Shown here one piece after another: positions 6,661 through 53,760 of a DNA stretch of 64,000 bases (the stretch's first letter is position 1; the number at the start of each line of letters is the position of its first letter). Below the pieces are notes generated by a model. The model had not been told where the DNA came from, did no database searches, and worked only from the letters and a program-made list of their open reading frames with translations. The position numbers were made by a program, and so were the translations under genes. The DNA comes from Acidimicrobiia bacterium (lineage in GTDB: Bacteria; Actinomycetota; Acidimicrobiia; Spongiisociales; UBA11373). The DNA lies in assembly GCA_040902765.1 (NCBI GenBank), contig JBBDWO010000011.1, positions 1 through 64,000 of the forward strand, given 5' to 3'.

Positions 6661-7937
6661 GGTGTCCCGACGAACTGGTCCTGTTCGGTGGAGCCCGCCA
6701 GTGCCAGGGTGGAGGCGGCGCCGCCGGAAATCACCTGCGCCACCAGGTCGAAGTAGCCGGCGCCGACCTCGCGCTGGTGCCGCGTCGCCGTGTACCCGAA
6801 CTCTTCCGCGGCGAACTCCCTCTCCTGGAGGTCGACGTACGCCGCCATCCCGGACCGCGCGTACCCGTGGGCCAGTTCGAACATCGACAGGGCCACAGCG
6901 TGGAAGCCGGCCAGTGTGATGAACTGGAATCGGTACCCCATCGCCCCCAACTCCTTCTGGAAGTCGGCGATGGTGGCGTCATCGAGGTGGCGCCTCCAGT
7001 TGAAGGACGGAGAGCAGTTGTAGGCGAGCAGCTTTCCGGGGAATTCGGCGTGGATCGCGTCGGCGAATACGCGGGCCTCCTCCAGGTCGGGGGTGGCGGT
7101 CTCGCACCAGATGAGGTCGGTGTAGGGGGCGTAGGCAAGTCCGCGCCGCACCGCCGCCTCCATGCCGTTGCGGACCACGAAGTAGCCCTCGGAGGTGCGT
7201 TCGCCGGTCACCAAGTCCCGGTCCGCAGGGTCGATGTCGCTCATCAGCAGCGAGGCCCCGAGCGAGTCGGTGCGGGCGACGAGGACGGTGGGCACCCCCG
7301 CCACGTCGGCGGCGAGCCGTGCCGCCGTCAGCGTGCGTACGTGCTGTGACGTGGGGACCAGGACCTTGCCCCCCATGTGGCCACACTTCTTCTCGGAGGC
7401 GAGCTGATCTTCGAAGTGGACGCCGGCGGCCCCTGCCTCGATCATCGCCACGGTGAGCTCGTAGGCGTTGAGGGCACCGCCGAAGCCGGCCTCAGCGTCG
7501 GCGACGATCGGCACCATCCAGTCGCGGGTCGCCCCGCCCTCTGCGGACTCGATCTGGTCGGCGCGCCGAAGGGCGTTGTTGATGCGGCGGACAAGGGTCG
7601 GGGCGCTGTTCGCGGGATACAGGCTCTGGTCCGGGTACGTCTGCCCGGCGAGGTTGTTGTCGGCGGCCACCTGCCACCCCGAGAGATAGATCGCATCGAG
7701 GTTCGCCTTCACCATCTGCACGGCCTGAGTGCCGGTGAGGGCGCCCAGCGCCGGAACGAAGTCCCGCTCGTGGAGGAGGCGCCACAGGCGCTCGGCGCCC
7801 CGGCGGGCGAGGGTGTGTTCGACGGCGACCGAGCCGCGCAGGCGGGCGACGTCGGCGGCCGCGTAGTCCCGACGGATGCCCTCCCACCTCGCAGAGGTGG
7901 CCCACTCTCGTTCCAGTGCCTCGATGACCTCGTCCAT
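6657..7937 (-). CDS. aceA: Isocitrate lyase
   Basis: A 426-residue isocitrate lyase that splits isocitrate into succinate and glyoxylate. The active-site motif [14 protein letters not shown] (about residue 185) and [15 protein letters not shown] are diagnostic; [14 protein letters not shown] is also a family hallmark. The ATG at 7937 is preceded by GGGAGGA at a somewhat long nine-base spacing and gives the usual length; the frame is open upstream but runs into the divergent regulator. First gene of the aceA-aceK-aceB operon and therefore the gene whose promoter faces the RamB-like regulator. Confidence 0.96.
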
Positions 7938-8016
7938 GCGGTGGTGTCCTCCCTCGTGAGCGCTAGCCGTTACAGAGGAGTATTCTTCACTCGGCGCGGC
8001 CATTCCAGGGGTCCTG
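7938..8016. promoter_or_regulatory. Shared aceA/ramB-like control region
   Basis: A 79-base divergent intergenic region holding both promoters. A short palindrome GAGT-N7-ACTC (7978-7992) in an AT-richer patch is the best operator candidate for the neighbouring regulator. In Corynebacterium glutamicum, RamB represses aceA and aceB and its own gene; the site here does not obviously match the corynebacterial consensus, so the operator assignment is an inference. Confidence 0.4.
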
Positions 8017-9507
8017 ATGGTTAAATCCGACCAGAGTTCACAAAAGCCCACGACGCGTGCGAATGATTTGCCCGGCCTTGACACCCGAGTCTTCGGTCAC
8101 CGTCTGCGCCATGCCCGCAAGGAGGCCGGCCTGACCCTCGCCGAGCTCGGTGAGCGGGTCGGTCGCCAGGCCTCGTATCTGTCGATGGTCGAGAACGGGC
8201 ATCGCGACCCGCCGCTGGGCCTGGTCGACGCCCTCGCCGCGGCGCTCGGTGTCGGGGTGGGGTCGCTGCTCGAGCCGGAGGCGCCCACACACAGGGCACG
8301 CCTCGAGATCGCAGTGGAGCGTGCCCAGGAAGACCCCTTGTACCGGGAGCTGGGGCTCCCCCACTTCAAGGCCTCGGCGCGGGTACCCGACGAGGCACTC
8401 GAGCACATCGTCGGGCTGTACGGGGAGCTACACCGGCGGTCTCTGCTCCGCTCCGCCACACCCGAAGAGGCGCGACGCGCCAACGCCGACCTGCGTGACG
8501 ACATGCGCCGGCGCGGCAACTACTTCCCCGAGATCGAGGAAGTGGCCGCCGAAGCCCTGCGTGGGGCCGACTACGGGGGATCGGGAGCGGTGCCGCCGCG
8601 GCTCCTCTCCGATGTCGCGGCCGGCTTCGGCTTCACGGTGCGGCAAGTGCAGGACCTCCCGACGTCGACCCGGTCGATCACCGACGGGAGGTCCCGCGTC
8701 ATCTACATCCCGCAGCGTGACGAGCTGCGCACCCGTGCCGCCAGGACCGTGGTGCTGCAGACCCTGGGTCACTTCGCTCTCGGGCACCGCGACCCCGTCG
8801 ACTTCGGCGACTTCCTCCGGCAGCGGGTCGAAGCCAACTACTTCGCCGCCGCCGTCCTCATGCCCGAGGCGGCCGCCGTGGCGTTCCTCAACGGCGCCAG
8901 GGCCGAGCGGGACCTGTCGGTGGAGGACCTCAAGGAGATCTTCTACGTGTCCTACGAGATGGCGGCGCATCGGTTCACCAACCTCGCCACACATCACCTG
9001 GGTATCGGGACCCATTTCATCCGTTCCGACGAGCAGGGGGTCATCTGGAAGGCGTATGAGAACGACGGTGTGCCCTTCCCGGCGGACCCGTTCGGCGCGA
9101 TCGAGGGGCAGCGGCTCTGTCGACGGTGGGGCACCCGCCAGGCGTTCGGGTCCGACGACCAGTTCGCCGTTCACTACCAGTACACGGACACTCCCGCGGG
9201 CACCTTCTGGTGCGCCACCCACGTCGAGGCAGACCGCGAGCCGCCACACGCCGTCACGGTGGGTGCCCGGTTCGAGGACAGCCGGTTCTTCCGTGGACGG
9301 GAGACGACGCGACGCTCCACCTCGACGTGTCCGGACGAGTCGTGCTGCCGGCGGCCCCCGGCGGAGCTGGCGGACCGGTGGGACGGGATCGTGTGGCCCG
9401 CGGCACGCACGCAGAGCCACGTCCTCGCCGCGCTCCCGGCGGGCACCTTCCCCGGCGTCGACATGACCGACGTCTACGAGTTCGTCGAGCGTCACACCCC
9501 CCGCTGA
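8017..9507 (+). CDS. ramB: RamB-like regulator (XRE domain plus IrrE-like and C-terminal DUF2083-type domains)
   Basis: A 496-residue regulator. A Cro/CI-type helix-turn-helix occupies about residues 28-82 ([20 protein letters not shown], then [15 protein letters not shown]). The centre has an IrrE/ImmA-like region in which the zinc motif is degraded ([13 protein letters not shown] instead of HExGH), as in short-chain fatty-acid regulators, so it is probably a sensor and not a protease. The C-terminus carries a STCPDESCC cysteine cluster that could bind a metal or cofactor. Its divergent position next to isocitrate lyase supports a role in acetate/glyoxylate control, as for RamB. Effector unknown. 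Confidence 0.85.
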
Positions 9508-9533
9508 CCGCGGCGGTGCCCCATACTGGGGGC

Positions 9534-9977
9534 GTGAGAAGGTTCATCGCCCGGATCGACGCGGTCCTCATCCCCTGGCTGCGCCGGTGGAGCGTGCCGC
9601 TGCTGCGCGGCGCGCTCGGGGTGGTCTTCGTGTGGTTCGGCGCACTCAAGGTGCTCGACGTGTCCCCGGTCTCCGACCTGGTGGCCGACACCGTCTACTG
9701 GGTCGACCCGTCCTGGCTCGTCCCGGTACTCGGCGGGGTCGAGATCATCATCGGACTGGGACTGCTGCTGCGCCGTGGGCTTCGCCTCGTACTGGCCGCC
9801 CTGGTCCTGCAGCTGGCGGGAACCTTCCTGGTCTTCGCCGTCCGACCCGAGGTCGCCTTCCAGGACGGGAATCCGTTCCTGCTCTCGGTCTTGGGCGAGT
9901 TCGTCATCAAGAACCTGGTGCTGCTCACCGCCGCGCTGGTCGTCGGCTCGACCATCGAGCGCAGACCACGCGCCTAG
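9534..9977 (+). CDS. DoxX-like membrane protein
   Basis: A 147-residue protein with four predicted membrane segments: PLLRGALGVVFVWFGALKVL, LVPVLGGVEIIIGLGLLL, LVLAALVLQLAGTFLVFA and a last segment near FVIKNLVLLTAALVVG. The order and the polar G-x-x-K and E residues in the helices fit the DoxX/YkgB-like superfamily; molecular role unknown. GTG start lies six bases after CATACT (9522-9527), a -10 element, so the transcript is probably leaderless. Confidence 0.75.
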   Translation: MRRFIARIDAVLIPWLRRWSVPLLRGALGVVFVWFGALKVLDVSPVSDLVADTVYWVDPSWLVPVLGGVEIIIGLGLLLRRGLRLVLAALVLQLAGTFLVFAVRPEVAFQDGNPFLLSVLGEFVIKNLVLLTAALVVGSTIERRPRA

Positions 9978-22476: not shown

Positions 22477-22556
22477 GGCATCCTCCGGGTCGGTTCGCCG
22501 CAGAGCCTACACCCGCAAGCACCGCCGTCCCCTTGGCAGCCGGCACGATGTTGGCG

Positions 22557-22568
22557 TACCCTCCGGCC
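22557..22568 (+). promoter_or_regulatory. -10 element for a leaderless dehydratase mRNA
   Basis: TACCCT at 22557-22562 is separated by six bases from the GTG at 22569, with no ribosome site. The same TA/CA-hexamer-N6-GTG layout precedes dinB and the DoxX-like gene. Confidence 0.5.
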
Positions 22569-24035
22569 GTGACCACCACCTGGATCCCCGGCGACCCGAT
22601 CCGCACCAGTGAGGACTATCTGGCCAGCCTCCGGGGCCGCAAACTCGCCGTCTGGCTCTTCGGCGAGCAGGTGGACGAGCCGATCGACCACCCGATCATC
22701 AGACCGTCGATCAACGCCCTCGCCGCCACCTACGATCTCGCGGTCGAGAACCCCGACCTGGCGACCGCCGAGTCGCCGCTGACCGGCGAGCGGGTCAACC
22801 GGTTCCTCCACATCACCGCCTCCGCCGACGACGTGGTCGACCAGAACCGCATGCAGCGCCAGCTCGGACGCGCCACCGGGACGTGCTTTCAGCGATGCGT
22901 CGGCATGGATGCCCTCAACTCCCTGTTCTCCCTCACCTACGACGTCGATGCCGATCGGGGCACCGACTATCACCAGCGGTTCGTCATCTGGCTCACCGAG
23001 ATGCAGCGCCTCAACGTGGTCATCGGTGGAGCCATGACCGACGTCAAGGGCGATCGCAGTGTCGGGCCATCGGGTCAGGCCGATCCGGACGCGTACGTGA
23101 GGATCGTCGAACGCCGACCCGACGGAGTGGTCATCCGCGGCGCCAAGGCGCATCAGACCGGTGCGGTGAACTCCCACTGGATGATCGTGATGCCGACGAC
23201 CAGGCTCACCGAGACGGACCGCGACTACGCCATCGTCGGCGCGATCCCGGTGGACGCACCTGGCATCACCTACGTGTATGGACGACAGTCGGGGGACACG
23301 CGGAGCATGGAGGGCAACATCGACGTGGGCAATGCCCGCTTCGCCGGCCAGGAGTCGCTCGTCATGTTCGACGACGTCTTCATCCCGAACGAATTGGTGT
23401 TTCTCGACGGCGAGGTCGAGTTCGCCGCCGAGCTGGTCGACCGGTTCACCGCCTACCACCGTCGCTCCTACGTCTGCAAGTCCGGCGTCGGCGACGTCCT
23501 CATCGGCGCGGCGGCGCTCATCGCCGACTACAACGGCGTCCCCAAGGCGTCCCACATCCGAGACAAGATCGTCGAGATGTCACACCTCAACGAGACCATC
23601 TTCGGGTTGGGCATGGCGGCGAGCCACGAGTCCCACCGTCGCCCGGCGGGGAACTGGGAACCGGATCCCCTGCTGGCGAACTCGTGCAAGCTCGACGTGA
23701 CCCGGTATCCGTATGAGCTGGGCCGTCTGGCGCAGGACCTGGCCGGAGGTGCCGTGGTGACCCTTCCCTCCGAACGCGACTTCGATCATCCCGACATCGG
23801 CCCACTCCTGGACAAGTACTTCCGCGGCCGCCCAGGGGTGCCCACCATGGACCGGGTGCGGATCCTGCGGCTCATCGAAAACATGACGATGGGTCGCAAC
23901 GCGGTCGGGTACCTCACCGAGTCCCTCCACGGAGCGGGTTCGCCGCAAGCGCAGCGAATCGTCATCGAGCGCACCACCGACCTCGAGGAGAAGAAGCGCC
24001 TGGCGGCGCGGCTGGCTGGGATCGACGAAGCCTGA
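22569..24035 (+). CDS. abfD: 4-hydroxybutyryl-CoA dehydratase / vinylacetyl-CoA isomerase
   Basis: A 488-residue flavin and [4Fe-4S] enzyme that converts 4-hydroxybutyryl-CoA to crotonyl-CoA. GTCFQRCVGMDALN supplies the Cys-x3-Cys cluster ligands (C106, C110); GAMTDVKGDRSVGPS, RGAKAHQTGAVNSH and MTMGRNAVGYLTESLHGAGS are family signatures. The His and third Cys ligands are in AYHRRSYVCKSGVGDVL (H297, C303). As I recall the Clostridium enzyme, these are seven residues apart there and six here, a one-residue deletion next to the cluster. The GTG start is chosen because it is leaderless; ATG 22533 in the same frame would place the -10 inside the gene. Confidence 0.88.
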   Translation: MTTTWIPGDPIRTSEDYLASLRGRKLAVWLFGEQVDEPIDHPIIRPSINALAATYDLAVENPDLATAESPLTGERVNRFLHITASADDVVDQNRMQRQLGRATGTCFQRCVGMDALNSLFSLTYDVDADRGTDYHQRFVIWLTEMQRLNVVIGGAMTDVKGDRSVGPSGQADPDAYVRIVERRPDGVVIRGAKAHQTGAVNSHWMIVMPTTRLTETDRDYAIVGAIPVDAPGITYVYGRQSGDTRSMEGNIDVGNARFAGQESLVMFDDVFIPNELVFLDGEVEFAAELVDRFTAYHRRSYVCKSGVGDVLIGAAALIADYNGVPKASHIRDKIVEMSHLNETIFGLGMAASHESHRRPAGNWEPDPLLANSCKLDVTRYPYELGRLAQDLAGGAVVTLPSERDFDHPDIGPLLDKYFRGRPGVPTMDRVRILRLIENMTMGRNAVGYLTESLHGAGSPQAQRIVIERTTDLEEKKRLAARLAGIDEA

Positions 24036-42612: not shown

Positions 42613-42681
42613 TGGTGGGCGCTTCTGGGATTGAACCAGTGACCTCTTCCGTGTCAGGGAAGAACGGGCCTCTAAGCGCCG
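42613..42681 (-). pseudogene. tRNA-Val(GAC) pseudogene lacking the D-arm
   Basis: Relative to the intact tRNA-Val(GAC) at 53684-53760, the anticodon arm (CTTCC-CTGACAC-GGAAG), variable loop and most of the T-arm are kept, with 32 consecutive identical bases. The D-arm (18 bases) is replaced by ten unrelated bases, the first acceptor pair is mismatched, and the last T-stem pair is broken. Its T-loop (TTCAATC) matches the CAC isoacceptor and not the GAC gene. Encoded CCA is still present. Same orientation as the intact gene. Confidence 0.85.
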
Positions 42682-42840
42682 CAACGGAACCCGGCGGAAT
42701 CCCTTACGCGGCAACGGTTCACGCCTGACGGGGACTCGCGACGGTTCGCGCTATCTGACGGACTCTCGCGGACACCTCGCGGACAGGTCTGCTCCGGGAC
42801 GCGCGGGTGGCGTTTCGAGCCCGGCGCCATACGCCTCGGT

Positions 42841-42978
42841 GACGTCGCCGCGCGGCTCGAAACCGATGCCTAGGCCGATCCGACCGAAGCCGATCTGAGC
42901 CAGCTCCGCGACACCCTGGAACGGAGGCTCGGCGACGCTGGCATCGATCTCGAGCCGTTCGAGCGCTTCCGCTCCTGA
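42841..42978 (+). pseudogene. Short gene remnant with internal stop
   Basis: The frame 42841-42978 reads GDVAARLETDA, TAG at 42871, then SQLRDTLERRLGDAGIDLEP and FERFRS before TGA. The part after the stop is coding-like (helical, high G/C third positions). No family recognised. The rest of 42682-42997 shows no gene; it has short direct repeats around CGCGGA. Confidence 0.3.
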
Positions 42979-42997
42979 TCCACCCGCGCCGGCGCGC

Positions 42998-43402
42998 TCA
43001 CATCTCTGGGGGAGGGCCCTCCGTCTCAGGCCGGGAACGCATGAGGACGATCGCGGCGACGAAGGCGACGAGGCCCGCGATTCCGAAGACCGCCTCTTCC
43101 CGTACCCAGCTGTCCCCGGGAAGCGCGGACAGCCCGGCCTGACCCAGGCCGACGATCACGGCGACGGCGACGACCGCTCCCACCGCATAGACGACCCGAC
43201 GGCCGACCGAATCCCGGCGCCCGATGTAGGCGCCGAACGCTGCAGCGGCGATCACGACGCCTCCCAGCCCGGCAAAGAACGCAAGCGCCTCCACCAGGCT
43301 GTCCTCGTCGGGGCCGCCCTGGGCGGCCATCACCGCGATCTTCCCCATCCACCCGATGCCCCCGACCAGGCCGGCGACGATCGCCACCGTGCGTGCCCTC
43401 AT
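42998..43402 (-). CDS. Hypothetical four-helix membrane protein
   Basis: A 134-residue protein with four hydrophobic helices (about 4-26, 38-58, 66-88 and 98-118) and a short acidic tail. ATG 43402 follows GGAAGGA by seven bases. It is the last gene of the ccm transcript, 64 bases after ccmE. No family recognised; the final tail (SRPETEGPPPEM) is cytoplasmic or periplasmic depending on topology. Confidence 0.65.
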   Translation of the reverse strand: MRARTVAIVAGLVGGIGWMGKIAVMAAQGGPDEDSLVEALAFFAGLGGVVIAAAAFGAYIGRRDSVGRRVVYAVGAVVAVAVIVGLGQAGLSALPGDSWVREEAVFGIAGLVAFVAAIVLMRSRPETEGPPPEM

Positions 43403-43466
43403 GCGTGTTCCTTCCTCTCTCCTCGATGCTGCTTGCGATCCGACCCTCACCGAGCCCCCTTCTCGA

Positions 43467-43829
43467 TCACCCGCCCTCATCGTGCGCCCGCACCGACACC
43501 TGATCGCTCTCGACGACACCGTCGCGATACACGCCCTTGGCCACGACCAGACGCCCCTCCTCGAGGGTCAGGGGGCGCCGACCGACATAGGCGTACCGAA
43601 CGAGTGCGGTTGCCCCGGTGCCGTCGGTCAGCTCGAACGTGAGATGATCGGTCCCGACCTCGAGACGCTGGACGATGCCCTCGACCTGGACCCTGCGTCC
43701 CTCGTGGTCGGCGGTGAGGTCTGCGGGAGCGACGAACGGCGTCGAGGCCTGGAAGGTTCCGATGAGCACCAGGGTCATCGCTACCACGGTGACCGTGCCC
43801 GCCAGGATCAGGCGTCCCCGCCTACTCAC
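43467..43829 (-). CDS. ccmE: Cytochrome c maturation haem chaperone CcmE
   Basis: A 120-residue membrane-anchored haem chaperone: N-terminal helix (RRGRLILAGTVTVVAMTLVL) then an OB-fold with VQVEGIV, LTFELTDGT and EGRLVVAKGVYRDGVVESDQV. CcmE normally binds haem through His in H-D-E-x-Y; here the protein ends VRAHDEGG, so His116 remains but the following Tyr and tail are absent. Start is GTG 43829, overlapping the ccmD stop (GTGA). Confidence 0.88.
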   Translation of the reverse strand: MSRRGRLILAGTVTVVAMTLVLIGTFQASTPFVAPADLTADHEGRRVQVEGIVQRLEVGTDHLTFELTDGTGATALVRYAYVGRRPLTLEEGRLVVAKGVYRDGVVESDQVSVRAHDEGG

Positions 43830-43954
43830 TCCGTCCCCGAATCGCCCCCGGCGCGGATCGACCGCAGCCGGCGCTCCCAACGAAAGGCCATGAGGGCGGG
43901 AACCAACCAGACCGCAGCGAAGATCGCCGCCGCGCAGAACTCGAGCACGGTCAT
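43826..43954 (-). CDS. ccmD: CcmD-like small membrane protein
   Basis: A 42-residue protein, one membrane helix (LEFCAAAIFAAVWLVPALMA) followed by a basic stretch FRWERRLRSIRAGGD. Size, topology, charge and position between ccmC and ccmE fit CcmD, which releases holo-CcmE from CcmABC. Overlaps both neighbours by four bases. Confidence 0.75.
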   Translation of the reverse strand: MTVLEFCAAAIFAAVWLVPALMAFRWERRLRSIRAGGDSGTE

Positions 43955-44613
43955 GGCGTGCCCCTTCGCGGCGCCGCCGCCTCGCGTTCGGCGCCCTCGA
44001 GCCGCCACCGCAGCGACACGAGGTAGTAGTAGACCAGCGACATACCGACCGGGGTCAGGATGAATGCCGGGAGGTGGATGGCGACACTCTCCGTGGCAAT
44101 CGTCGTGCCGTGGAATGGGCTCTGCCATAGCCGGGTCGATGCCACGGTGATCGGCACCGAGACGAATGCCAGCACACAGAAGACCGCACCCCGCCGGTAC
44201 CCGGCGGGGTCGTGAACCCCTCGGTGGTAGAGCAGATACCCCGCGTAGATGAACCACACGACCAGGGCGGTGACGAGCCGGATATCGCTCCACTCCCACC
44301 ACGAATTCCAGATGAAGCGGCCCCACACCATCCCGGTGGCCAGCGTGAACGTGAGGAATACGAAGGACACGACGATGGCGCCCTGAGCGATCCAGCTGTG
44401 TCGCGCCACCCCGCGCCGCAGGTAGCCGATGCTGGCCACGGTCGCCACCGCCAACCCGGCGAAGCCCACCCAGGCGACGCCGACATGGAAGTAGAACAGG
44501 AGGTTGATGGGATGGTCGACGCCGTAGAACTCGGTGGGCGCCCGCAGCGCGATGAGCACAGTCGTACCGATCAGCACCGCCAGGCCCGCGAGACCGGCTC
44601 TACGCCACGACAC
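43951..44613 (-). CDS. ccmC: Haem lyase/exporter CcmC
   Basis: A 220-residue six-helix protein that loads haem on CcmE. The periplasmic WWD-type loop is present as VWGRFIWNSWWEWSDIRLVT, and external His residues (FYFHVGVAWVGF, TESVAIHLPAF) are the expected haem ligands. GTG start has GAGGAG six bases upstream, inside the end of the fused ccmAB. Confidence 0.93.
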   Translation of the reverse strand: MSWRRAGLAGLAVLIGTTVLIALRAPTEFYGVDHPINLLFYFHVGVAWVGFAGLAVATVASIGYLRRGVARHSWIAQGAIVVSFVFLTFTLATGMVWGRFIWNSWWEWSDIRLVTALVVWFIYAGYLLYHRGVHDPAGYRRGAVFCVLAFVSVPITVASTRLWQSPFHGTTIATESVAIHLPAFILTPVGMSLVYYYLVSLRWRLEGAEREAAAPRRGTP

Positions 44614-44616
44614 CGC

Positions 44617-46074
44617 TCACTCCTCGGCCGCGAATTCGAACACCATCATGCCTGCGGCGACCATCCCGACGGCGTAGAGGGCGAGCACCCGCAGCCAGCC
44701 GACGTCCAGCTCCCCGGACTCGAGGAGGGTCGCGACCGCCTCCACTCCGGCGAGCAGGACCGGCACGGCGAGCGGTAGGAACAGCAGCGGCAAGAAGGTC
44801 TCCCCGAGCCTCGAGTGGTGCGAGAGCACGCTAAGGACCGAGCCGACCGCGGCGAGCCCCACGGCGGCGAGGGCCATGATCACGGCGAGTCCGGGCAGCA
44901 CCGCGAGCAGCGTCGGCGCAGCGAAGAACACCGCGAGCCCCACTGCGGCGACGAGTGCCACACCGAGCAGCAGGGCTGCGGTGCTGGCGACACGGCCCAG
45001 GTACATCCCCATGGGATCGGCCCCGCTCAGCAACAGCCCCCGGAGGGCATCGTCACGGAAGTCCTCGTCGAAGCCTCGTGCGAGTGCGTGCAGCGCGGTG
45101 AACACGATCAGCACCCACAGCATCCCGCTCACCGCCCGAGGGCTGCCGGCGAGTGGCTCAAACGCCATGGCGAGGACCGTTGCGAGCAGCCCGGCCAGGA
45201 CCAGTACCGCCGACGACATCGAGCGGGTGCGCGCCTCGACGGTCAGGTCCTTGCGCAGCACCGCCGCAGCCGTGTCGAGTACGCCCGAGGAGTGGCCGGG
45301 TATCCGAACCGCAGCCTCGGCGCGCCCGTTCGGGGCCACCTGCTCGACCCGGGATGCCGCAACGTGGGCCGTCTCCGAGACCACTCTGCCCTCCTCGAGC
45401 CTGACGACCCGATCGGCGAGCACCCGCACGCGTTCCGCCTCGTGTGTGGCGAACAAGAGCGTCTTGCGCCCACGCACCTCGACGAACATCCGGGCGAGTT
45501 CCTCCTGGGCCCCGGCATCGAGCCCCGAGAACGGCTCGTCGAGCAGCAGGACCGAGGGGTTGTGCAGCAGGACCCTCGCCAGCGAGAGACGCTTGCGTGT
45601 CCCGTGCGACAACCCGCCGACACGCCGGTCGGCCACGCCGTCGAGGCGAGTCTCCTCGATCACGGCTGCGACCCGCCACGCCGGAAGGCCCCGTAGGCGG
45701 GCGTGCAGCGCGAGGTTCTCCCTGCCGGTCAGCCCGTCGTACAGCATGGAGCGGTGGGTCAACACGCCGAGAAGACCGTTGGAGCCGTTCCCCCGCGTCA
45801 CCGCGTGTCCTTCCACCGTGACGGTGCCGGAGAGCGGGCGGTTCATCCCTGCAGCGACCGCGATCAACGACGACTTACCCGCCCCGTTGGCTCCGACGAT
45901 CGCCGTCGCCGAGCCCGCGGGAAAGTCGATCGAGATCTCATCGAGAGCGAGCACGTCACCGTAGGCGAGCGACACCCTTTCCAGACGAAGAGCGGGCCGG
46001 GTGTCCGTAAGGGCATCGGCGCCCACCGGGGAACTGCGGAGCGCAACCGACTCGGGAACGACGAGACGCTTCAC
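44617..46074 (-). CDS. ccmAB: CcmA-CcmB fusion: haem-export ABC transporter
   Basis: One 485-residue frame. Residues about 29-240 are the ATPase CcmA: VGANGAGKSSLIAVAAGM (Walker A), LSHGTRKRLSLARVLLHNPS (signature) and VLLLDEPFSGLD (Walker B). Residues about 265-485 are CcmB, with six membrane segments and the conserved R-K-D-L-x-x-E-x-R-x-R start (VLRKDLTVEARTRS). The two are normally separate proteins. GTG start overlaps the ccmF stop. Works with CcmC and CcmD to release haem-loaded CcmE. Confidence 0.92.
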   Translation of the reverse strand: MKRLVVPESVALRSSPVGADALTDTRPALRLERVSLAYGDVLALDEISIDFPAGSATAIVGANGAGKSSLIAVAAGMNRPLSGTVTVEGHAVTRGNGSNGLLGVLTHRSMLYDGLTGRENLALHARLRGLPAWRVAAVIEETRLDGVADRRVGGLSHGTRKRLSLARVLLHNPSVLLLDEPFSGLDAGAQEELARMFVEVRGRKTLLFATHEAERVRVLADRVVRLEEGRVVSETAHVAASRVEQVAPNGRAEAAVRIPGHSSGVLDTAAAVLRKDLTVEARTRSMSSAVLVLAGLLATVLAMAFEPLAGSPRAVSGMLWVLIVFTALHALARGFDEDFRDDALRGLLLSGADPMGMYLGRVASTAALLLGVALVAAVGLAVFFAAPTLLAVLPGLAVIMALAAVGLAAVGSVLSVLSHHSRLGETFLPLLFLPLAVPVLLAGVEAVATLLESGELDVGWLRVLALYAVGMVAAGMMVFEFAAEE

Positions 46075-48164
46075 GAGCCGCGCCCTCCCCCGTGAGCAGA
46101 CACCGGGTCACCGAGGCGCCGATCCGCGGAGCGGGAGACTCCGCCCCTGGACCCGGCCATCATCATCCCCATCCCGCCGACGAACAGCAGCATTCCTCCG
46201 AACAACAGGCTCACCGCCGGGATGTGGCGGACCGTGACGGGGACCCCCTGAGGCCCCATGTCGCCGGACCCGTGGTACACGACCTGCACGTCGGCGGCCA
46301 GCCCGCGGCTCACCATGACCTGAGCATGACGGCCCATGGCCCTCTCCGGATAGGTGGACACGCTCGCCTCGCCGGTCGTCTCCAGGCGTCCACCTCGCCA
46401 GACCTCAAGTGTCGCCGACTCCCGCACCTCGGCGAGCCTACCCATGCCGTCGTAGTGCTCGGAGCTCTCGACGCCGAGCACGCGGACGGTGACGCCTCCG
46501 CTCGCCCCAACGCCGGTCATCGGATCCACGGCGACCGTGACGCTCGTGGAGAAGATCGTCGCCAGCGCCGCCCCGACGATGACGGCGACGACACCCAAGT
46601 GCATGGCCGCACTCCCCAGGTGGCGGAGCCTGGCATCGGCCGTGGATTCCCGTCGCCGGAGCCACCACCAGCGTTCGACGGCGGCAACGAGGGCGTAGGC
46701 GGCAGGAGGGAACAGCATGAGCGCGCTCGCGCCCCCGAAGAACGACTCGAAGGCGCCTGACCCCGCCCGCCCCTCCGCCGAGAGCAGCTCCATTCCCGGC
46801 ACCGGCTTCACCGCGGCCGCCACCGCGGTCGCCACCATGAACAGGGCGAGCATCGGCATCGCCTCGCGTCGTCGTCCCTGAGCGGCCTGCATCCCGAACC
46901 CCATCACGAAGAGGAGACCGACCGCGAGCACATAGCCCCACAGTACGAAGAAGCCGGTGTCCAACTCCACGGAGCGCCCCATCGCGCCGGTGGCCAGCAT
47001 CGGATACACGAGGCCCCACACGATCACACCCGAACCGGCGAGCAGCAGCCACCACGCCCACGACAGCCACGGCTGCCGGGTCGGTTCGACGGCGGTCGCA
47101 CGCCACGCCCTGACCGCCAGGATGGCCGTCACCCCAAGCACCACGACGAGGAGGAGGCCCAGCATACGACCGGCCGACCCGCCCGCGAAGGCGTGAACGC
47201 TGGGATGCAGCCCGGATCGCGTGACGAACGACGCGAACACCACCCCGACCCAGGGAAGGGCGCCGACGAGCGGCGCGGTGACGAGCTGCCGACGGCCGCC
47301 GTCCTCACTGCGGTCCGCATGGAGCGCGGCGGTCAGGAGCAGCCATACGACCAGGGTGGCCGTCTCCACCGGATCCCACGACCAGAACCAGCCGAAGGTC
47401 ATCTCCTCGTATGCCCACACGATCCCCGTCAGGAGCGCACCCGACAGGAGGAGCCAGGCCAGCCTGCCCACCCGTGCCGACCACAGCTGCAGCCCGGAGT
47501 CTCGCGGCGCTCTGCCGGCCGCCGCATTGGCGAGCCGACGGAGCGCGATGGCGAAGCCGAGTCCCAAGAGAGCGTACGCGGCGAACGTGAGCAGGGTGTG
47601 CGGTGGCATCCACGGGTTGGTGAGCACCGGGTTCAGACCTCTGCCCTCACCGGGGACGCTCCCCACCGGGAGCGTCGGAAACGCCGCCGAGAAGGAGCGG
47701 AATGGGCCGCTGGCTGCAGTCACGACGACCAGGAGCAGCACGATCAAGCTCACGACCGCGTGCACGAACGTCGCATCGGCCCGGTCGGCAGCGACGCTGG
47801 ACCGAACCCGGCGTCCCGTCCACACGGCGACGCCAGCTGCGAACAGTGACCACACCAGGAACGAGCCCTCCGACCCGGCCAGGAGGCCGCTCATCCGCTG
47901 CAGCACCCCCTGGTAACTGGCGCTGTGTTGCCACACGTAGTGGACCGAGAAGTCTCCGGCCACGAGCAGGACGAGAAGCTGGAGCGTCGCCGCCGCAACG
48001 AACGCGAACACCATCCAGGAGAAGCCCGCGCCGCCCGCTCGCGCGAGCAAGCGCTCGGCCGATCCCCGCGAGCGGCTCCGCAGATCGTGGGTGGCGGCGA
48101 AATGACGTCGGGTCGCGTCAGCAGCCGCCACGGCGGCGGCCAACACCGCCACCGTGATGATCAC
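46071..48164 (-). CDS. ccmF: Cytochrome c haem ligation protein CcmF
   Basis: A 697-residue multi-helix protein that transfers haem from CcmE to apocytochromes. The WWD domain is seen as EEMTFGWFWSWDPVETATL, and GSEGSFLVWSL near residue 96, VWAYEE and conserved His residues are typical. A C-terminal periplasmic domain (about 560-660) and a final helix with Met-rich MGMMMAGS follow. GTG start. The Ccm partners CcmH and CcmI, which normally present apocytochrome, are not encoded nearby. Confidence 0.94.
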   Translation of the reverse strand: MIITVAVLAAAVAAADATRRHFAATHDLRSRSRGSAERLLARAGGAGFSWMVFAFVAAATLQLLVLLVAGDFSVHYVWQHSASYQGVLQRMSGLLAGSEGSFLVWSLFAAGVAVWTGRRVRSSVAADRADATFVHAVVSLIVLLLVVVTAASGPFRSFSAAFPTLPVGSVPGEGRGLNPVLTNPWMPPHTLLTFAAYALLGLGFAIALRRLANAAAGRAPRDSGLQLWSARVGRLAWLLLSGALLTGIVWAYEEMTFGWFWSWDPVETATLVVWLLLTAALHADRSEDGGRRQLVTAPLVGALPWVGVVFASFVTRSGLHPSVHAFAGGSAGRMLGLLLVVVLGVTAILAVRAWRATAVEPTRQPWLSWAWWLLLAGSGVIVWGLVYPMLATGAMGRSVELDTGFFVLWGYVLAVGLLFVMGFGMQAAQGRRREAMPMLALFMVATAVAAAVKPVPGMELLSAEGRAGSGAFESFFGGASALMLFPPAAYALVAAVERWWWLRRRESTADARLRHLGSAAMHLGVVAVIVGAALATIFSTSVTVAVDPMTGVGASGGVTVRVLGVESSEHYDGMGRLAEVRESATLEVWRGGRLETTGEASVSTYPERAMGRHAQVMVSRGLAADVQVVYHGSGDMGPQGVPVTVRHIPAVSLLFGGMLLFVGGMGMMMAGSRGGVSRSADRRLGDPVSAHGGGRGS

Positions 48165-48194
48165 GACGCTCCCCGAAGGACCATCCAGGCTGGC

Positions 48195-48794
48195 TCACGC
48201 TCCGCCACCCGATACCACCCCCTCACGGGGAATGCGGACAAGCTGGTATACCGCGGACGCCAGTGCCAGCCACACTCCGATCAGGAGGACGAGGAACCAG
48301 ATCGCCGTGACGCCCCGAGGCAAGATCGAGTCGGCGACCACCGGAGTCAGGAAGGTCACCACTGCGGTCCCCGATGCGACGGTGAACGGCGTCGTGGCAC
48401 GCGCTGCGCCGAACTCCTCGGTACCGGCGAACTCGACGCTGAGGCTGCTGTCCCCCGGCGCCCTCGGCGTGAGGGCCACGGTCACCGTGCCCTGACTGTC
48501 GGTGCGCAGGAGGCCGACCGTTCGAAAGTCGACGTAGTCGAAGAATCGGATCTCCTCCAGCACCACGACGGTGGCGCCGGCGATCGGACGGCCGCGCTGG
48601 TCGAGGAGACTGATCGTCGCTTCGAAGTGCTCGCCCTGCACGGCTTGCTGCGGCGCGTCGATCGTGAGTCGGACCTCCTGGCGTACTTCGCCCGCTACCG
48701 CGGGTCCGGCCCACAGGAGCACGACGGCGAGGCCCGCCACGACCGACCATGCCACCGGGCGCCGTCCAACGGTGTGACGCGATCGGGAACTCAT
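48195..48794 (-). CDS. Exported Ig-like protein with C-terminal membrane anchor
   Basis: A 199-residue protein. A signal peptide (VAWSVVAGLAVVLLWAGPAVAG) is followed by a beta-sandwich of the bacterial Ig/carboxypeptidase-regulatory kind (GRPIAGATVVVLEE, then TDSQGTVTVAL) and a C-terminal helix (TAIWFLVLLIGVWLALASAV). No metal or haem motif. It is translationally coupled to nrfD (ATGA) and precedes ccmF, so it probably belongs to the redox complex or its assembly. Function unknown. Confidence 0.75.
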   Translation of the reverse strand: MSSRSRHTVGRRPVAWSVVAGLAVVLLWAGPAVAGEVRQEVRLTIDAPQQAVQGEHFEATISLLDQRGRPIAGATVVVLEEIRFFDYVDFRTVGLLRTDSQGTVTVALTPRAPGDSSLSVEFAGTEEFGAARATTPFTVASGTAVVTFLTPVVADSILPRGVTAIWFLVLLIGVWLALASAVYQLVRIPREGVVSGGGA

Positions 48795-50119
48795 GTGCTC
48801 TCCTTCCCTGCCGCGTCCCCGGACGTGCCCACCCGCTCCGCCCCCTCGAGGCCGTGCTCCACCTCCCACATCGAGATGATCGGGAAGACCCGCTGAAAGA
48901 TCATGAACACCAAGACGAGTCCCGCCGCCGCGGCCGCGGTGATCGCCCACTCGATCCAGGTCGGCGAGTAGGTGGCAAGGCTGCCAGGGGTCATCCCCGA
49001 CTCCAGGGGAGGCACCACGATGATCCAGCGCTTCAGCCACATGCCGACGACGACGAGGACCGAGGCGAGGGTGATTCCCCCCACCGTACGGGTCCATGGG
49101 ATCGCGACGAGAGCCGCAGGCACCAGCATCCCGAGGACGATGGCGAACCAGAAGGCCCACGCGTGTGCCCCGCTCATGATCGATGCCAACGGCGCCTGAT
49201 AGTCGGCCGACACGGTGGTGTAGCCGATCGTCCAGTACTCACTGAACGTGAAGTACATGTAGGTGAGGTTGAGGGTGAGCAGGATGTACCCCAGCCTGAC
49301 GAAGTGGGCATCGGTGAAGAACGCCTGGAGCCCCTGGGATCGGCGGTAGACGGCCATGATGATGACGATCACGGCCGTGCCGCTGAACACCGCGCCGAGG
49401 ACGAAGTAGGGGGCGAAGATCGTGCTGTTCCACACCGGACGCGCGGTCACGCCGAAGATCCACGCCACCGCCGAGTGGGCGAGGATGGCGACCGGGATGA
49501 TGGTGACTGCGAGGATCCCCATGCCCTTCTCCAGCCTGCGTCGCTGCGCGGCGTTGCCGACCCAGGAGAACGCGACGAGGCGGTAGAGCCGGTATCGGAT
49601 CCCCTTGCGTGTGGGATGCAGGTCGCGGCACCGGGCTGCGTCGGGAACCAGCGGCAGCAGCAGGAACAGCAGGGCGGCGAACATGTAGGTGCTGAGCACG
49701 ACGACGTCCCAGATCAGCGGCGATCCGGCCCGGCCGGCGGTGATGATGTGCCACGACGCGATCCCGGGTCGTCCGAGGTCGGCGAAGATCATCAGGAAGG
49801 CGATGAGGAGAGCCGCCACGGTGACGATCTCGGCGATGCGGGTGACCGGTCGCCGCCACTCGACATTGACGAGGCGCAGCACCGCCGACAGCAGCGTGCC
49901 CGCGTAGCTGATGCCCACGAAGAAGATGAAGTTGATGATGTAGATCCCCCAGGGCTGCGATGACGAGAGCCCGGTGACGCCCAGCCCCTGTCGAAGCTGG
50001 ATACCCCACGCCACGAGGCCCAGCGCGACGATCAGGCCCAGCCCCGCGGCGAGCACCCAGTACGTCCTTCCGGCCCGTCCTTCGAGGGGACCCATCACTG
50101 CTCGTTCGACCGACGTCAT
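48791..50119 (-). CDS. nrfD: NrfD/PsrC-family membrane quinone subunit
   Basis: A 442-residue polytopic protein with about ten membrane helices. PWGIYIINFIFFVGISYAGT in the first helices, MIFADLGRPGIASWH and the FTFSEYWTIGYTTVS region resemble NrfD/PsrC/ActC proteins that exchange electrons with quinones. Partner of the iron-sulfur protein directly upstream. The gene symbol denotes the family, not nitrite reduction. Confidence 0.9.
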   Translation of the reverse strand: MTSVERAVMGPLEGRAGRTYWVLAAGLGLIVALGLVAWGIQLRQGLGVTGLSSSQPWGIYIINFIFFVGISYAGTLLSAVLRLVNVEWRRPVTRIAEIVTVAALLIAFLMIFADLGRPGIASWHIITAGRAGSPLIWDVVVLSTYMFAALLFLLLPLVPDAARCRDLHPTRKGIRYRLYRLVAFSWVGNAAQRRRLEKGMGILAVTIIPVAILAHSAVAWIFGVTARPVWNSTIFAPYFVLGAVFSGTAVIVIIMAVYRRSQGLQAFFTDAHFVRLGYILLTLNLTYMYFTFSEYWTIGYTTVSADYQAPLASIMSGAHAWAFWFAIVLGMLVPAALVAIPWTRTVGGITLASVLVVVGMWLKRWIIVVPPLESGMTPGSLATYSPTWIEWAITAAAAAGLVLVFMIFQRVFPIISMWEVEHGLEGAERVGTSGDAAGKEST

Positions 50120-50123
50120 CGCC

Positions 50124-51014
50124 TCACACCTCCGCCACGTGTGGCAGGTAGTAGACCTTCGGCTCGGTTCCCTTGTCTTCCTTGTACCGATAAGCCGCCC
50201 GGGACTCGAGCAGCTCGGTGAGCCTGCGGACCTCGGTGCCGTTGGTGACGACGTCGGTGGTCCTCTCTCCGAACCACAGGACGTCCTTGGGGCACTGCTG
50301 CACGCACCTGGGGAGTCGGGACTGCTGCAGGTAGTCGGCGCAGAAGACGCACTTGCCCACCGTCCCGCGACGGGCCGGCATGGTCAGTTCCGGCGTGTAC
50401 TGCTCGGGCGAGAGATGTGACGGCGGCGGTTCGTCCCACCAGAAGTACCGCGCGTCGTACGGGCAGGCAACCATGCACATCCGGCAGCCGATGCATTGAC
50501 GGTTGTCTACGAGCACGATGCCGTTCTTGTTGGAGTAGGTGGCCCCGACCGGACACACCTGGACGCACGGCGTGTTCTCGCACTGCATGCACGGCATCGG
50601 CCGGAAGAACTTCCCCGACGGGCCCTCCTCCTCCCACACGTTGATCCAGTGATGGTCGTCGTCGGGGAGGTTGTGACCGCTCTTGCATGCCTGCATGCAC
50701 TGCTTGCACCCGTCGCACTTGGCCAGGTCGATGACCATCACCCAACGATCGGCGGCGGGAAGGCGCAGGGCACTGCCATCCTGCACCGCAGAGTCGGCAT
50801 CGGACATGGCACGGGCGATGGCCGAGCCTCCCAGCGACGCCACGCCGGCGGCGCCGAGCGCCAACGCGAGGCTGCGCAGGAACGCCCGACGGCTCAGCAC
50901 GGTCCGTTCGTCGAGGCCGCCGAGGTCGAGATCTCCCGCCTCGATCGCGACCGGGTCGGTGGACATGCGCAGGAAGCCGTCGAGTTCCCCTCGCACGCTC
51001 TCGCCGGTCGTCAT
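50124..51014 (-). CDS. Tat-exported 4x[4Fe-4S] ferredoxin-type subunit
   Basis: A 296-residue electron-transfer subunit of the DmsB/PsrB/NrfC kind. A twin-arginine signal (SRRAFLRSLALALGAAGVAS, about residues 42-61) follows an unusually long N-region of about 40 residues. Four clusters are shown by KCDGCKQCMQACK, CMQCENTPCVQVCP, CIGCRMCMVACPYDAR and CVFCADYL followed by CVQQCP. ATG overlaps the haem protein stop. It should carry electrons between NrfD and the haem protein outside the membrane. Confidence 0.92.
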   Translation of the reverse strand: MTTGESVRGELDGFLRMSTDPVAIEAGDLDLGGLDERTVLSRRAFLRSLALALGAAGVASLGGSAIARAMSDADSAVQDGSALRLPAADRWVMVIDLAKCDGCKQCMQACKSGHNLPDDDHHWINVWEEEGPSGKFFRPMPCMQCENTPCVQVCPVGATYSNKNGIVLVDNRQCIGCRMCMVACPYDARYFWWDEPPPSHLSPEQYTPELTMPARRGTVGKCVFCADYLQQSRLPRCVQQCPKDVLWFGERTTDVVTNGTEVRRLTELLESRAAYRYKEDKGTEPKVYYLPHVAEV

Positions 51015-52747
51015 GCCGTGTCATCCGGCTCTTCGGTCGTCGCCTTTCGAGCCCTGCCGAGCACGATGGCGCCACCGACGGTGAGGAGGGCGATGATGAA
51101 GAACACGAAGGCCGCGTTGCCGGGGTCGAACGCCCGGATGAGGATGCTCCGCGACTCACCGTCGGGAAGCGCCACGCCGGCGAGCCGTGGTTCGATGGCC
51201 CGGTTGGCGGCTCCGAGCCCGATCGGATCGTCGTGACATCCGAGGACCGACATGCTGTCGTTGCGGACCTCCGTGGCCCCGGGGTGATCGTCGCTGGTGA
51301 GGAACTCCCAGTTGGTCTGTCCCGGGTAGATTGCCGTCAGGGTCGTCGCCTCGATGGCGTCCCAGTCGGGTGCGTCACCGTCGAATCGTGTCGCCGTCAC
51401 GTCCGCGGGCATGTCGACGCCGATCCGGAAGGGCAGCGTCACGAAGTGCCACCGGCTGCCGGTCGCCAGGCGATGAACGGCAATGGCCGCGTCGTAGGTG
51501 CGTCCCGGCAGGAACGGCTTGTCGGCGGTGGGATATCCCGTGTCCATGGGCCGCCACAGCGTGACGTCCCACACCCAGCCACCCTCTCCGTCGGAGAGCA
51601 GCCGCCCGTCCGCCCTGATGCTCCCCCGACTCTCGGTGGGCTCGGTGTTGAGCATGCGCCGGGGGATGACGTCGCCGTTGCGCCACTCACGGTCCGGGTC
51701 GAACGGGACCGCGTTGACCCCGTCGGCGATGAAGAAGTTGTCATCGTACCCGTATCCCTGAGCCTGCACGGTGTCCCAGTCGAGCGCGTCGTACCCGGTG
51801 ACCGCGGAGTCGAACATCAGCAGGGGCTGGCCGGCCTCGCTGTCGAAGTTAGTCGAGAAGGGCCCACGACCCGGGCTGGGACGCCGGTACTCGAAGACGG
51901 ACTCGTTGTCGCTGAATCCGATCGGGTTCGAGCGATGCGACCGCCAGTGCCACAGGTCCAGGAACACGCCCGCCTCGCGTCGGGCCTCGTACTTGTCGAG
52001 GTCCCCCAGATCGATGGCGTCCCAGCCGTTGGCCCGCCACCATTCCGGGCCGGCGTCGCGGGACTGCGGAAGATACTTGCGGACCTCTTCGAAGCGCAAC
52101 GCCTCAGCGATGGGATGTGCCACGACCTCGTCGTTCGGCGGCCCGCCGTACATGAAGGGGTTCCTCATGTCGTCGTGGCACGTGAGCCAGCCGCCCTGAT
52201 TGGCGAACCCCTTCACGCTGCCGTCGTCGACGAGCATCGAGATGCGATCCTCGTAGAGACCGTGGGGCTCGTTGCCCACCGGAGAGCGCCCGACCCGAAT
52301 CCACTTGCCGTCCTGATAGACGAAGTAGTCGTGGTAGTAGGACGGCAGGGGCGTCGGCACGCGATACCTGAAGAAGATGTCCTCACCGTTGTGGGCTGCC
52401 TGGATCTCGAGCTCGAAGGCGACCTGGTCGGGGGAGACGATGCCGGCCGCCGGGTCGTACACGCCCTGCGTGCCCACAAAGATGTCGCGGAACGCCTCTC
52501 CGAGCGGGGCGTTCTCGACGAACTCGGTCGCCGTGGGGGATTCCGACAGCGGTGCCACTCGCTGCGATGCCAACGCAATGGTTCCTGCGCCGAGCGCCAC
52601 CATGACGACGCTCGCCGACAGCACCCGGAGTGAGGGTCCGAGCCAGCCCGGCCTTCCATCTCGTGCCGCCACCGCTCCGGCTTCGAGTTCCGAGGCGGCT
52701 CCCAAACGAGGCCTACGCGACTCCCTGATGCCCATGCTCGTCCCCAT
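51011..52747 (-). CDS. Membrane-anchored ethylbenzene-dehydrogenase-type haem protein with two Cys-His motifs
   Basis: A 578-residue protein with a membrane helix near 41-60, a large extracytoplasmic beta-rich domain like the haem-binding gamma subunit of ethylbenzene and DMSO dehydrogenases (EB_dh), and a C-terminal helix at 546-565. It has exactly two cysteines, C190 in GGWLTCHDDMRN and C504 in MSVLGCHDDPIG. Neither is a CxxCH, but both are Cys-His-Asp-Asp, so each could bind haem by a single thioether. First gene of the redox-ccm operon. ATG 52747 and ATG 52735 are both possible starts. The physiological substrate is unknown. Confidence 0.8.
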   Translation of the reverse strand: MGTSMGIRESRRPRLGAASELEAGAVAARDGRPGWLGPSLRVLSASVVMVALGAGTIALASQRVAPLSESPTATEFVENAPLGEAFRDIFVGTQGVYDPAAGIVSPDQVAFELEIQAAHNGEDIFFRYRVPTPLPSYYHDYFVYQDGKWIRVGRSPVGNEPHGLYEDRISMLVDDGSVKGFANQGGWLTCHDDMRNPFMYGGPPNDEVVAHPIAEALRFEEVRKYLPQSRDAGPEWWRANGWDAIDLGDLDKYEARREAGVFLDLWHWRSHRSNPIGFSDNESVFEYRRPSPGRGPFSTNFDSEAGQPLLMFDSAVTGYDALDWDTVQAQGYGYDDNFFIADGVNAVPFDPDREWRNGDVIPRRMLNTEPTESRGSIRADGRLLSDGEGGWVWDVTLWRPMDTGYPTADKPFLPGRTYDAAIAVHRLATGSRWHFVTLPFRIGVDMPADVTATRFDGDAPDWDAIEATTLTAIYPGQTNWEFLTSDDHPGATEVRNDSMSVLGCHDDPIGLGAANRAIEPRLAGVALPDGESRSILIRAFDPGNAAFVFFIIALLTVGGAIVLGRARKATTEEPDDTA

Positions 52748-52875
52748 CTCTCGAGCCGGATCGTGCCGGCCGTAGGATCTTCAGTCCGTCGGTCCCCCCG
52801 ATAGGGGCGAAAGTCACAAACCCGTAGTGTGGGAACGGCTCCTGCGCAAGGTCGATCTGGCAGCGTGGAACCCAC
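52748..52875 (-). promoter_or_regulatory. Intergenic region before the redox-ccm operon
   Basis: A CCCC-TATC-GGGG hairpin (about 52796-52807) follows the lipoprotein gene and may end its transcript. The redox-ccm promoter should lie between it and 52747, but I cannot single out convincing -35 and -10 boxes. Confidence 0.3.
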
Positions 52876-53319
52876 TTACGGCGTGGGAACCTCCAGCGTG
52901 TCGGGGTACCCGGCTGCGATGAGCACTGACTCACCATCGACAACCGCCACAATGGCCCGGCTGTAGGGTTCAGGAGCCTGGCTGGAGGGACCCATCGGCG
53001 GAGACTTACCGATCGGCCCATCCAGGTAGCAGATCGTTGCGGGATGGGTGGAGGTCAGGCTGCCCCAGCGTGCGGGTCCACCGGGTTCCGGGATCAGACT
53101 CTGGACACTTCCAACGTCGCTGAGGAAGGCAGCCGCAACCGAGAACGTCGGGCCATAGGCCGCAACAACTAATGCACACGTGGCATCAGGATCCCCCGAC
53201 CCCACGGATCCACCAGGATCGTCCTGAGCGGGTGCCCCGCAGGCCGAAACGATAGAGACGACCAACACCAAGAGGGCTCTCTTCAAGGGCAACCCCATCC
53301 GCTTGACGAAACACTTCAC
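52876..53319 (-). CDS. Putative lipoprotein
   Basis: A 147-residue exported protein. The signal peptide KRALLVLVVSIVSACGAPAQ ends in a lipobox (V-S-A-C). The mature part has two further cysteines (about residues 47 and 97) that may form a disulfide, and a repeated small-residue beta pattern. GTG 53319 follows AAGGAG by five bases; ATG 53298 is an alternative. No family recognised. It lies between the tRNA cluster and the redox operon on the same strand. G+C looks lower than in neighbouring genes. Confidence 0.65.
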   Translation of the reverse strand: MKCFVKRMGLPLKRALLVLVVSIVSACGAPAQDDPGGSVGSGDPDATCALVVAAYGPTFSVAAAFLSDVGSVQSLIPEPGGPARWGSLTSTHPATICYLDGPIGKSPPMGPSSQAPEPYSRAIVAVVDGESVLIAAGYPDTLEVPTP

Positions 53320-53683
53320 GAGCGCTCCTTCGAATTCATCCCTTATGACGTAGCCAGGCACTAGCTGCGTTCCGGCACCTCTGACCCTATGAGCCGGGGG
53401 TTTTCCATTCGCTCGGAACTTCCGGATCCATACGTCCCTCGTATCCGGCCGAATCAAAGCATCACTGCCTGATCGTCTAGGACAAGCAGACGAAGCATGT
53501 TGTGTTGAGGACGAGGGTTTCCATCTAGGTCAGGTGGACCCGTCGGTGTCACAAACTCGCCCCGAAACTGGCTCCCCCGTGGGATGTTTCTCATGTGGAC
53601 GCAATGTGGTCGCGGCCTCGATCACGGGGTCTCGGACTCGAACGCTGATCGGCACCTTTCCCTTGTGCCGCACCGGATTCCGC
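53320..53683. other. Gene-free stretch beside tRNA-Val
   Basis: About 360 bases of lower-G+C sequence with no convincing reading frame, tRNA or clear repeat on either strand. It must hold the lipoprotein promoter. Such a gap is unusual in this compact genome and fits a decayed island end. Confidence 0.5.
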
Positions 53684-53760
53684 TGGTGGGCGCTACTGGA
53701 TTTGAACCAGTGACCTCTTCCGTGTCAGGGAAGCGCTCTCCCGGGCTGAGCTAAGCGCCC
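53684..53760 (-). tRNA. tRNA-Val(GAC)
   Basis: Acceptor GGGCGCT/AGCGCCC, D-arm GCTC/GAGC, anticodon stem CTTCC/GGAAG with loop CTGACAC (anticodon GAC), T-arm ACTGG/CCAGT, discriminator A and encoded CCA (53686-53684). Its damaged copy lies at 42613-42681. Confidence 0.97.

Follow-up and report, generated by a model that had tools for sequence, protein, structure and literature searches.

Islander recognizes tRNA-integrated islands by the signature of a tRNA gene (tDNA) with its displaced fragment, and lists 2083 anticodon-centred islands (PMC4383910). On the side of cytochrome maturation, the SirEFG proteins of Shewanella include a dedicated haem lyase (SirE) for the CX12NKGCH site of SirA (PMC6976685). 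For System I, the ABCDEF set of Ccm proteins has been put forward as the fundamental core, and a natural set without CcmG and CcmH works in System I* (PMC3601427). Here we describe a locus that combines a tRNA-bounded island with a core Ccm set, found in 64,000 nucleotides of an Acidimicrobiia bacterium (GCA_040902765.1, contig JBBDWO010000011.1, positions 1-64,000 of the forward strand; this whole stretch is called the window below). On the minus strand the order is dut, tRNA-Gly, tRNA-Cys, tRNA-Val(GAC), a co-directional 11-kb block, a 50-nt fragment of tRNA-Val(GAC), and pyrC with its neighbours. We consider it highly probable that the block is an old tRNA-Val(GAC) island which has lost its integrase, and whose one-operon cargo came from a Nitriliruptoria-like donor and encodes an EB_dh/iron-sulfur (Fe-S)/NrfD complex with a core set of Ccm proteins.

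Attachment sites at tRNA-Val(GAC)

The intact tRNA-Val(GAC) gene (53684..53760, minus strand) is called by ARAGORN and Rfam and has the T-loop TTCAAATCC; its positions 28-77 (53684-53733) are the core of the attachment site attL. A direct copy of these 50 nt lies 11,071 bp apart on the same strand (42613..42662). It is 94% identical, includes the T-loop and forms the attR core, and neither ARAGORN nor Rfam calls a tRNA there. Its homology to the intact gene ends at position 28, where the anticodon stem begins, and in five aligned loci the conserved part begins at the anticodon stem. The tDNA and its cognate fragment therefore bracket the block, with the fragment on the 3' side, in the same orientation and within the 2-200 kb range.

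The preliminary description had placed an 11-kb block between two tRNA-Val(GAC) copies, with gaps and gene remnants at its edges. The block, the tRNA repeat and the gaps are confirmed. The intergenic gaps measure ~365 bp (53320-53683) and ~335 bp (42663-42997), and the latter contains a plus-strand reading frame (42808..42975) broken by stops, which reads as a gene remnant and has no convincing match among the other loci compared. The further idea that the second copy is a tRNA with a deleted D-arm is not supported by our data. The letters "GCGCTTAGA" upstream of the fragment do resemble a 5' acceptor stem, and the homologous flank of a tRNA-Val fragment in genome G009 reads ACGCCTAGA. Since the two flanks are homologous, the supposed 5' half is element sequence, and the second copy (attR) is the host gene's 3' half, moved away and now adjoining an arm of the element.

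The T-loops fit this picture. In an order-wide alignment of tRNA-Val(GAC), the closest relatives (G013, G007, G003 and G012) have TTCAATCCC and G008 has TTCGATCCC. The fragment agrees with the closest relatives, with one mismatch nearby, and it is the intact gene that differs, as would be expected if the element supplied a new 3' half and displaced the host's own. The pattern thus suggests that the 3' half of the intact tRNA was replaced and that the fragment is ancestral.

Element-derived arms with direct repeats adjoin both cores. The attL arm (53560..53683, minus strand) recurs beside "GCCCACCA" on contig C28 of the same genome (86%). In G012 it is found again behind a 3' fragment of tRNA-Val on C68 (G012:C68, 79%) and, in part, behind tRNA-Val(TAC) on C161 (G012:C161). 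The attR arm (42663..42800, minus strand) is homologous over ~120 bp to the flank of the tRNA-Val fragment in G009:C167 (75%, E 7.6e-27) and contains the perfect 10-bp direct repeat CTCGCGGACA at 42765-42774 and 42776-42785. The pattern GTCCRCRN4GTCCRCR, derived from the aligned arms and scanned over all 64 kb with at most one mismatch allowed, has two matches on the minus strand, one in each arm (53594..53611, GACCACATTGCGTCCACA, and 42767-42784). About two are expected by chance, and the weight of the matches is their position, not their number.

Several side observations concern related arms. The C28 copy (184874-184997; locus L009, 12873-12998) follows a sequence resembling a tRNA 3' end. 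With tRNA-Val(TAC) 5.8 kb upstream of it on the same strand, it is probably a scar left in another valine tRNA by a related element. Beside it is a ~120 bp stretch with GGGCCGGGCAGGACGCGAACC tandemly repeated (L009, 12648-12880). The tRNA-Val fragment in G012:C68 (L132, 8310-8640) is flanked by element arms on both sides and looks like a tandem-island junction or an assembled attP. In G009:C28 (L152, 147-890) an integrase match directly adjoins tRNA-Val(TAC), so that this isoacceptor may also be a landing site.

The order dut-Gly-Cys-Val(GAC) is conserved across the taxonomic order, and the same tRNA holds other islands. In G018 an integrase (PF00589) lies ~220 bp after it and a fragment follows 7.4 kb on; in G024 a sub-threshold, decayed integrase match lies beside it, with a fragment ~0.9 kb on; in G031 the fragment is 4.1 kb on and that contig has no integrase match. 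The window represents the last stage of this series, in which arms and fragment remain without an integrase. The tRNA-Val(GAC) after dut is a recurrent landing site in this order. In G008, which belongs to another genus of the same family and is the nearest relative with the same neighbours, dut-Gly-Cys-Val and the pyr genes (pyrC) are separated by 3.9 kb that encode other products (sulfotransferase-like, HpaB-like and repeat proteins, as judged from sequence), and neither block nor fragment is present. An HpaB-like gene precedes pyrC in G013 too. An apparent homologue of this gene (G008/G013; L123, 11214-12677) is found ~20 kb away in the window, at 22533-24035, and points to rearrangement around the locus.

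The cargo and its relatives in Nitriliruptoria

All genes of the block are on the minus strand. Its core begins with a 578-aa protein (51011..52747) that has the EB_dh (PF09459) haem-binding domain (Pfam 121 bits, cut-off 33.3) and a hydrophobic stretch near each end. It is followed by a DsrO-like Fe-S protein of 296 aa (50124..51014) that matches Pfam Fer4_11 and other models as well as NCBIfam DsrO (180 bits, below the cut-off of 200); since it has a twin-arginine motif (RRAFLR) and 16 Cys, it is probably exported with four clusters. The NrfD/DsrP-like membrane subunit of 442 aa (48791..50119) scores 109 bits with Pfam NrfD and 113 bits with NCBIfam DsrP, the latter below the cut-off of 350. 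Then comes an Ig-like domain protein of 200 aa (48195..48797), again with hydrophobic stretches near both ends, which has a weak Big_1 match and occupies the same place in both Nitriliruptoria genomes discussed below.

The Ccm genes complete the core. The CcmF/NrfE-family haem lyase (697 aa, 46071..48164) was assigned by Pfam and has the WWD motif FGWFWSWDPVE. CcmA and CcmB form one open reading frame (ORF) of 485 aa (44617..46074; Pfam ABC_tran at 44-182, CcmB at 270-481), likewise a single frame of 475 aa in the Nitriliruptoria locus L200; we know of no description of such a fusion, no literature search having been aimed at it. CcmC (220 aa, 43951..44613; Pfam Cytochrom_C_asm, 80 bits), a CcmD-like small membrane ORF (42 aa, 43826..43954), assigned by position and sequence and without Pfam match, and CcmE (120 aa, 43467..43829; Pfam CcmE 34.4 bits, cut-off 24.6) follow. 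The C-terminus of CcmE, VSVRAHDEGG, keeps the His and has no Tyr after it. CcmF_C, Cytochrom_C_asm, CcmB and CcmE are thus all above their Pfam cut-offs; the NCBIfam models, including the NrfE family for CcmF, are below theirs. Profile searches with Pfam and NCBIfam detected neither CcmG nor CcmH in the block, nor a molybdopterin catalytic-subunit gene beside the EB_dh domain; DsrM, DsrK and DsrJ are not in the block either, and no block protein contains CXXCH. Two additional ORFs form the block ends: an uncharacterised lipoprotein-like ORF of 147 aa (52876..53319; no Pfam or NCBIfam match), whose G+C at third codon positions (GC3) of 0.69 is the lowest in the block, and a small membrane ORF of 134 aa (42998..43402; no family above cut-off).

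A CcmF motif scan covering 84,980 species genomes returned a single relative, in a Nitriliruptorales metagenome-assembled genome (G395, 56%). The whole cluster is present in the same order in G395 (L200 and L217, split over two contigs) and in a second Nitriliruptoria genome, G451 (L218-L219). Identity to the two is 75-78% for NrfD, 71-74% for the Fe-S protein, 65-69% for CcmC, 63-64% for the EB_dh protein, 57-59% for CcmE, 58% for CcmAB, 53-56% for CcmF and 47-51% for the Ig-like protein. As a housekeeping yardstick, carB is 57-58% identical to both Nitriliruptoria, 79% to G008 and 68% to G020, so the best-conserved block subunits are closer to Nitriliruptoria than carB is. NrfD proteins of the genome's own order reach at most 41% over its length, and CcmF proteins of its own class ~30%. 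From these identities, above carB for the best subunits and low within the own class, it follows that the cargo was transferred between classes. EB_dh relatives occur in nine of 397 genomes of the phylum, namely this one and eight others. The eight belong to two families, and by score and coordinates they correspond to loci identified in the class of G395.

Trees of CcmF and NrfD, which the preliminary description had proposed, group the window with L200 and L218 (100/100 for CcmF, 95/100 for NrfD); the tree program warns of long branches, and the grouping is used together with synteny, not alone. From the distribution of the cluster and the att structure we infer a transfer from a Nitriliruptoria-like donor to this genome. 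Searches of viral contigs (CcmF) and plasmids (NrfD) found no close relatives. Beside the Nitriliruptoria ccm cluster, L200 holds a second module (7621-9866) with a secreted protein that has a CuA/COX2-like end, as judged from sequence, a Tat-type (twin-arginine) Fe-S protein and the start of another NrfD.

Possible histories of the locus

In the history we favour, a tyrosine-recombinase element would have integrated into tRNA-Val(GAC), downstream of dut-tRNA-Gly-tRNA-Cys, at a site centred on the anticodon. Recombination would have restored the tRNA with the element's 3' half and pushed the host's 3' half 11 kb away, beside the pyrimidine genes, and later loss of the integrase gene would have fixed the block. 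The cargo would be one operon from a Nitriliruptoria-like donor, encoding an envelope-anchored EB_dh haem protein, an exported four-cluster Fe-S protein, an NrfD/DsrP-type membrane subunit and a core Ccm set. Such a complex may link the quinone pool to an electron partner outside the membrane. Its EB_dh subunit may receive haem from the extra Ccm set, which would work next to the host's native Ccm.

The preliminary description had already proposed a tRNA-targeted island without integrase, acquired as one block. That proposal holds up on the attL/attR anatomy, the recurring arms, the other islands at the same tRNA and the absence in G008, all read directly from sequence, and on the Nitriliruptoria affiliation. 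The suggested comparison of synteny also turned out in its favour, with dut-Gly-Cys-Val followed by the pyr side without block or fragment in G008, and the block found elsewhere in two Nitriliruptoria genomes.

A number of points weigh against this history. The T-loop argument uses few informative positions. The block retains no integrase: a PF00589 search of the window contig (C11) gave no match, and the locus is for this reason filed as an integrase-less remnant and not as an intact or mobile island. The sole clear phage-type integrase elsewhere in the genome, on C31, is not beside tRNA-Val. The nearest relative compared, G008, belongs to another genus, so there is no exact empty site, and its corresponding interval holds other genes. 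The G+C of the block is close to that of its flanks, and its codon use is only marginally unlike them, an equal difference being reached by 2.6% of same-size groups of flank genes; the compositional contrast sought in the preliminary description is absent for G+C and marginal for codon use. Finally, the function of the cargo is predicted from domains. Two lines of evidence were dropped altogether: foreign base composition or codon use as a sign of insertion, the signal being too weak, and the C31 integrase as the lost partner, as it is not beside a tRNA and has no arm match.

Among the alternatives, a history in two layers fares best, although we regard it as rather unlikely. Here a tRNA island came first, and homologous recombination brought the respiratory operon into the old scar at a later time or as a separate event. 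Hotspots often collect successive insertions, and G012:C68 resembles a junction of two elements or an attP. Also, the two end ORFs (147 aa, with low GC3, and 134 aa) lie outside the Nitriliruptoria cluster, and neither a tRNA-Val sequence nor a called tRNA was found near the blocks of G395 and G451. Against two layers, the operon nearly fills the space between the arms, with no third tRNA fragment between the layers.

Far less probable is that the second tRNA copy is a decayed duplicate of tRNA-Val, or an unrelated copy, and the block an ordinary resident operon. The genome does have several tRNA-Val genes, and letters like a 5' acceptor stem (GGCGCTTAGA) occur upstream of the fragment at roughly the right place. 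This scenario was rejected because the tRNA-Val fragment of another element has a flank homologous to the ~120 bp upstream and because five loci share the start of the conserved part at the anticodon stem; moreover, G008 is without the block at the matching place, and the block genes resemble those of another class more than those of the family. An assembly or binning artefact that joined Nitriliruptoria-like DNA to this genome is hardly credible. In its favour, the assembly consists of 35 contigs and could be a metagenome bin. Against it, the block is inside a 130.5-kb contig with host genes on both sides and host-like composition, its identity to the known donor group is only 47-78%, and the tRNA/arm junctions at both edges make biological sense.

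The second Ccm set and described systems

The preliminary description took the block as the explanation for System I in an actinobacterium, a claim that fails on CcmF homologues in 221 of 395 sampled genomes of the class (E<=1e-20) and on native CcmF and CcmC genes on C28 of this genome. Given these native genes, the Ccm of the island is a second set.

Only two Cys occur in the EB_dh protein, one in WLTCHDD and one in VLGCHDD (C190/H191 and C504/H505), 314 residues apart. Both Cys-His sites are present in all three ccm-linked EB_dh homologues (window and both Nitriliruptoria). Where the site is covered, they are absent from all 14 unlinked ones, which have no CcmF, CcmC, FeS or NrfD next to them; the comparison of 3 with 14 represents few independent events. 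Unlinked homologues read GGFMT, GGYMT or GGFLT where linked ones read GGWLTCH, and within G451 the linked paralogue has both sites whereas two unlinked paralogues have neither. Together with the known dedicated haem lyases and the ABCDEF core, the linked-only sites suggest that the extra Ccm set, on balance, serves this EB_dh/FeS/NrfD complex. A more specific scenario is tentative and on the doubtful side: the core set (CcmAB, C, D-like, E and F, without G and H) might attach haem covalently to EB_dh via the two non-CXXCH Cys-His sites, turning a normally b-type haem fold c-type, and the pair might travel between actinobacterial classes as a unit. The main alternative for the two Cys is a disulfide or metal site.

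Structural comparison did not decide between these. In an AlphaFold model of the EB_dh protein made without alignment (predicted local distance difference test score, pLDDT, 35.3), a meeting of the two Cys at the haem is not readable, and the match to 2IVF chain C (E 0.12 over a short stretch) does not allow the haem ligands to be placed. A phmmer search with the single EB_dh sequence found nothing. The literature on EB_dh, NrfD and Ccm in actinobacteria yielded only work on NrfA, with the term EB_dh absent. As an observation apart, an ABC ATPase (MacB-like by its neighbours) lies near 13 of the 14 unlinked Nitriliruptoria EB_dh loci (L203-L216), which is a separate, uncharacterised EB_dh/ABC ATPase association.

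If EB_dh is the only client of the Ccm set, this set would be a naturally separated, minimal ABCDEF system and would offer a direct test of which Ccm parts are needed without a CXXCH motif or a vicinal cysteine pair to reduce. The locus itself shows a whole respiratory module moving between actinobacterial classes with a complete second core for haem export and haem attachment.

Among described systems, SirEFG/SirA and NrfEFG/NrfA share with the window an extra CcmF-family protein beside one redox protein in a genome with general Ccm. They differ in that the window set brings the haem-export half (CcmA-B, C and E) without a CcmG/CcmH-type gene, and in that its client is without CXXCH and has Cys-His sites 314 residues apart, where haem attachment is putative. 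With System I and System I* the block shares the core ABCDEF set, and with the latter the missing CcmG and CcmH genes. Its CcmE has a His, not the Cys of System I*. Different too are the lack of the following Tyr in CcmE and the presence of CcmA and CcmB as one protein. Like DsrMKJOP, the block encodes an exported Fe-S protein and an NrfD-type membrane subunit resembling DsrO and DsrP, but at 180/200 and 113/350 bits both stay below the curated cut-offs, and an EB_dh protein stands instead of DsrM, DsrK and DsrJ. Ethylbenzene dehydrogenase (type II dimethyl sulfoxide (DMSO)-reductase family) differs in its molybdopterin subunit, which the window block does not have, although the EB_dh domain is present.

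As an island, the locus matches those listed by Islander (PMC4383910) in having an intact tRNA gene with its 3' fragment downstream and equally oriented, a crossover centred on the anticodon and a spacing within 2-200 kb. Its interval is without integrase and would be rejected by the integrase filter of that pipeline; it is an old, fixed remnant, of an island type missed by integrase-based finders. The Nitriliruptoria cluster (EB_dh-FeS-NrfD-Ig-CcmF-CcmAB-CcmC-CcmE) has the same genes in the same order, at 47-78% protein identity, whereas the window copy ends in tRNA-Val att sequences and carries two extra small ORFs.

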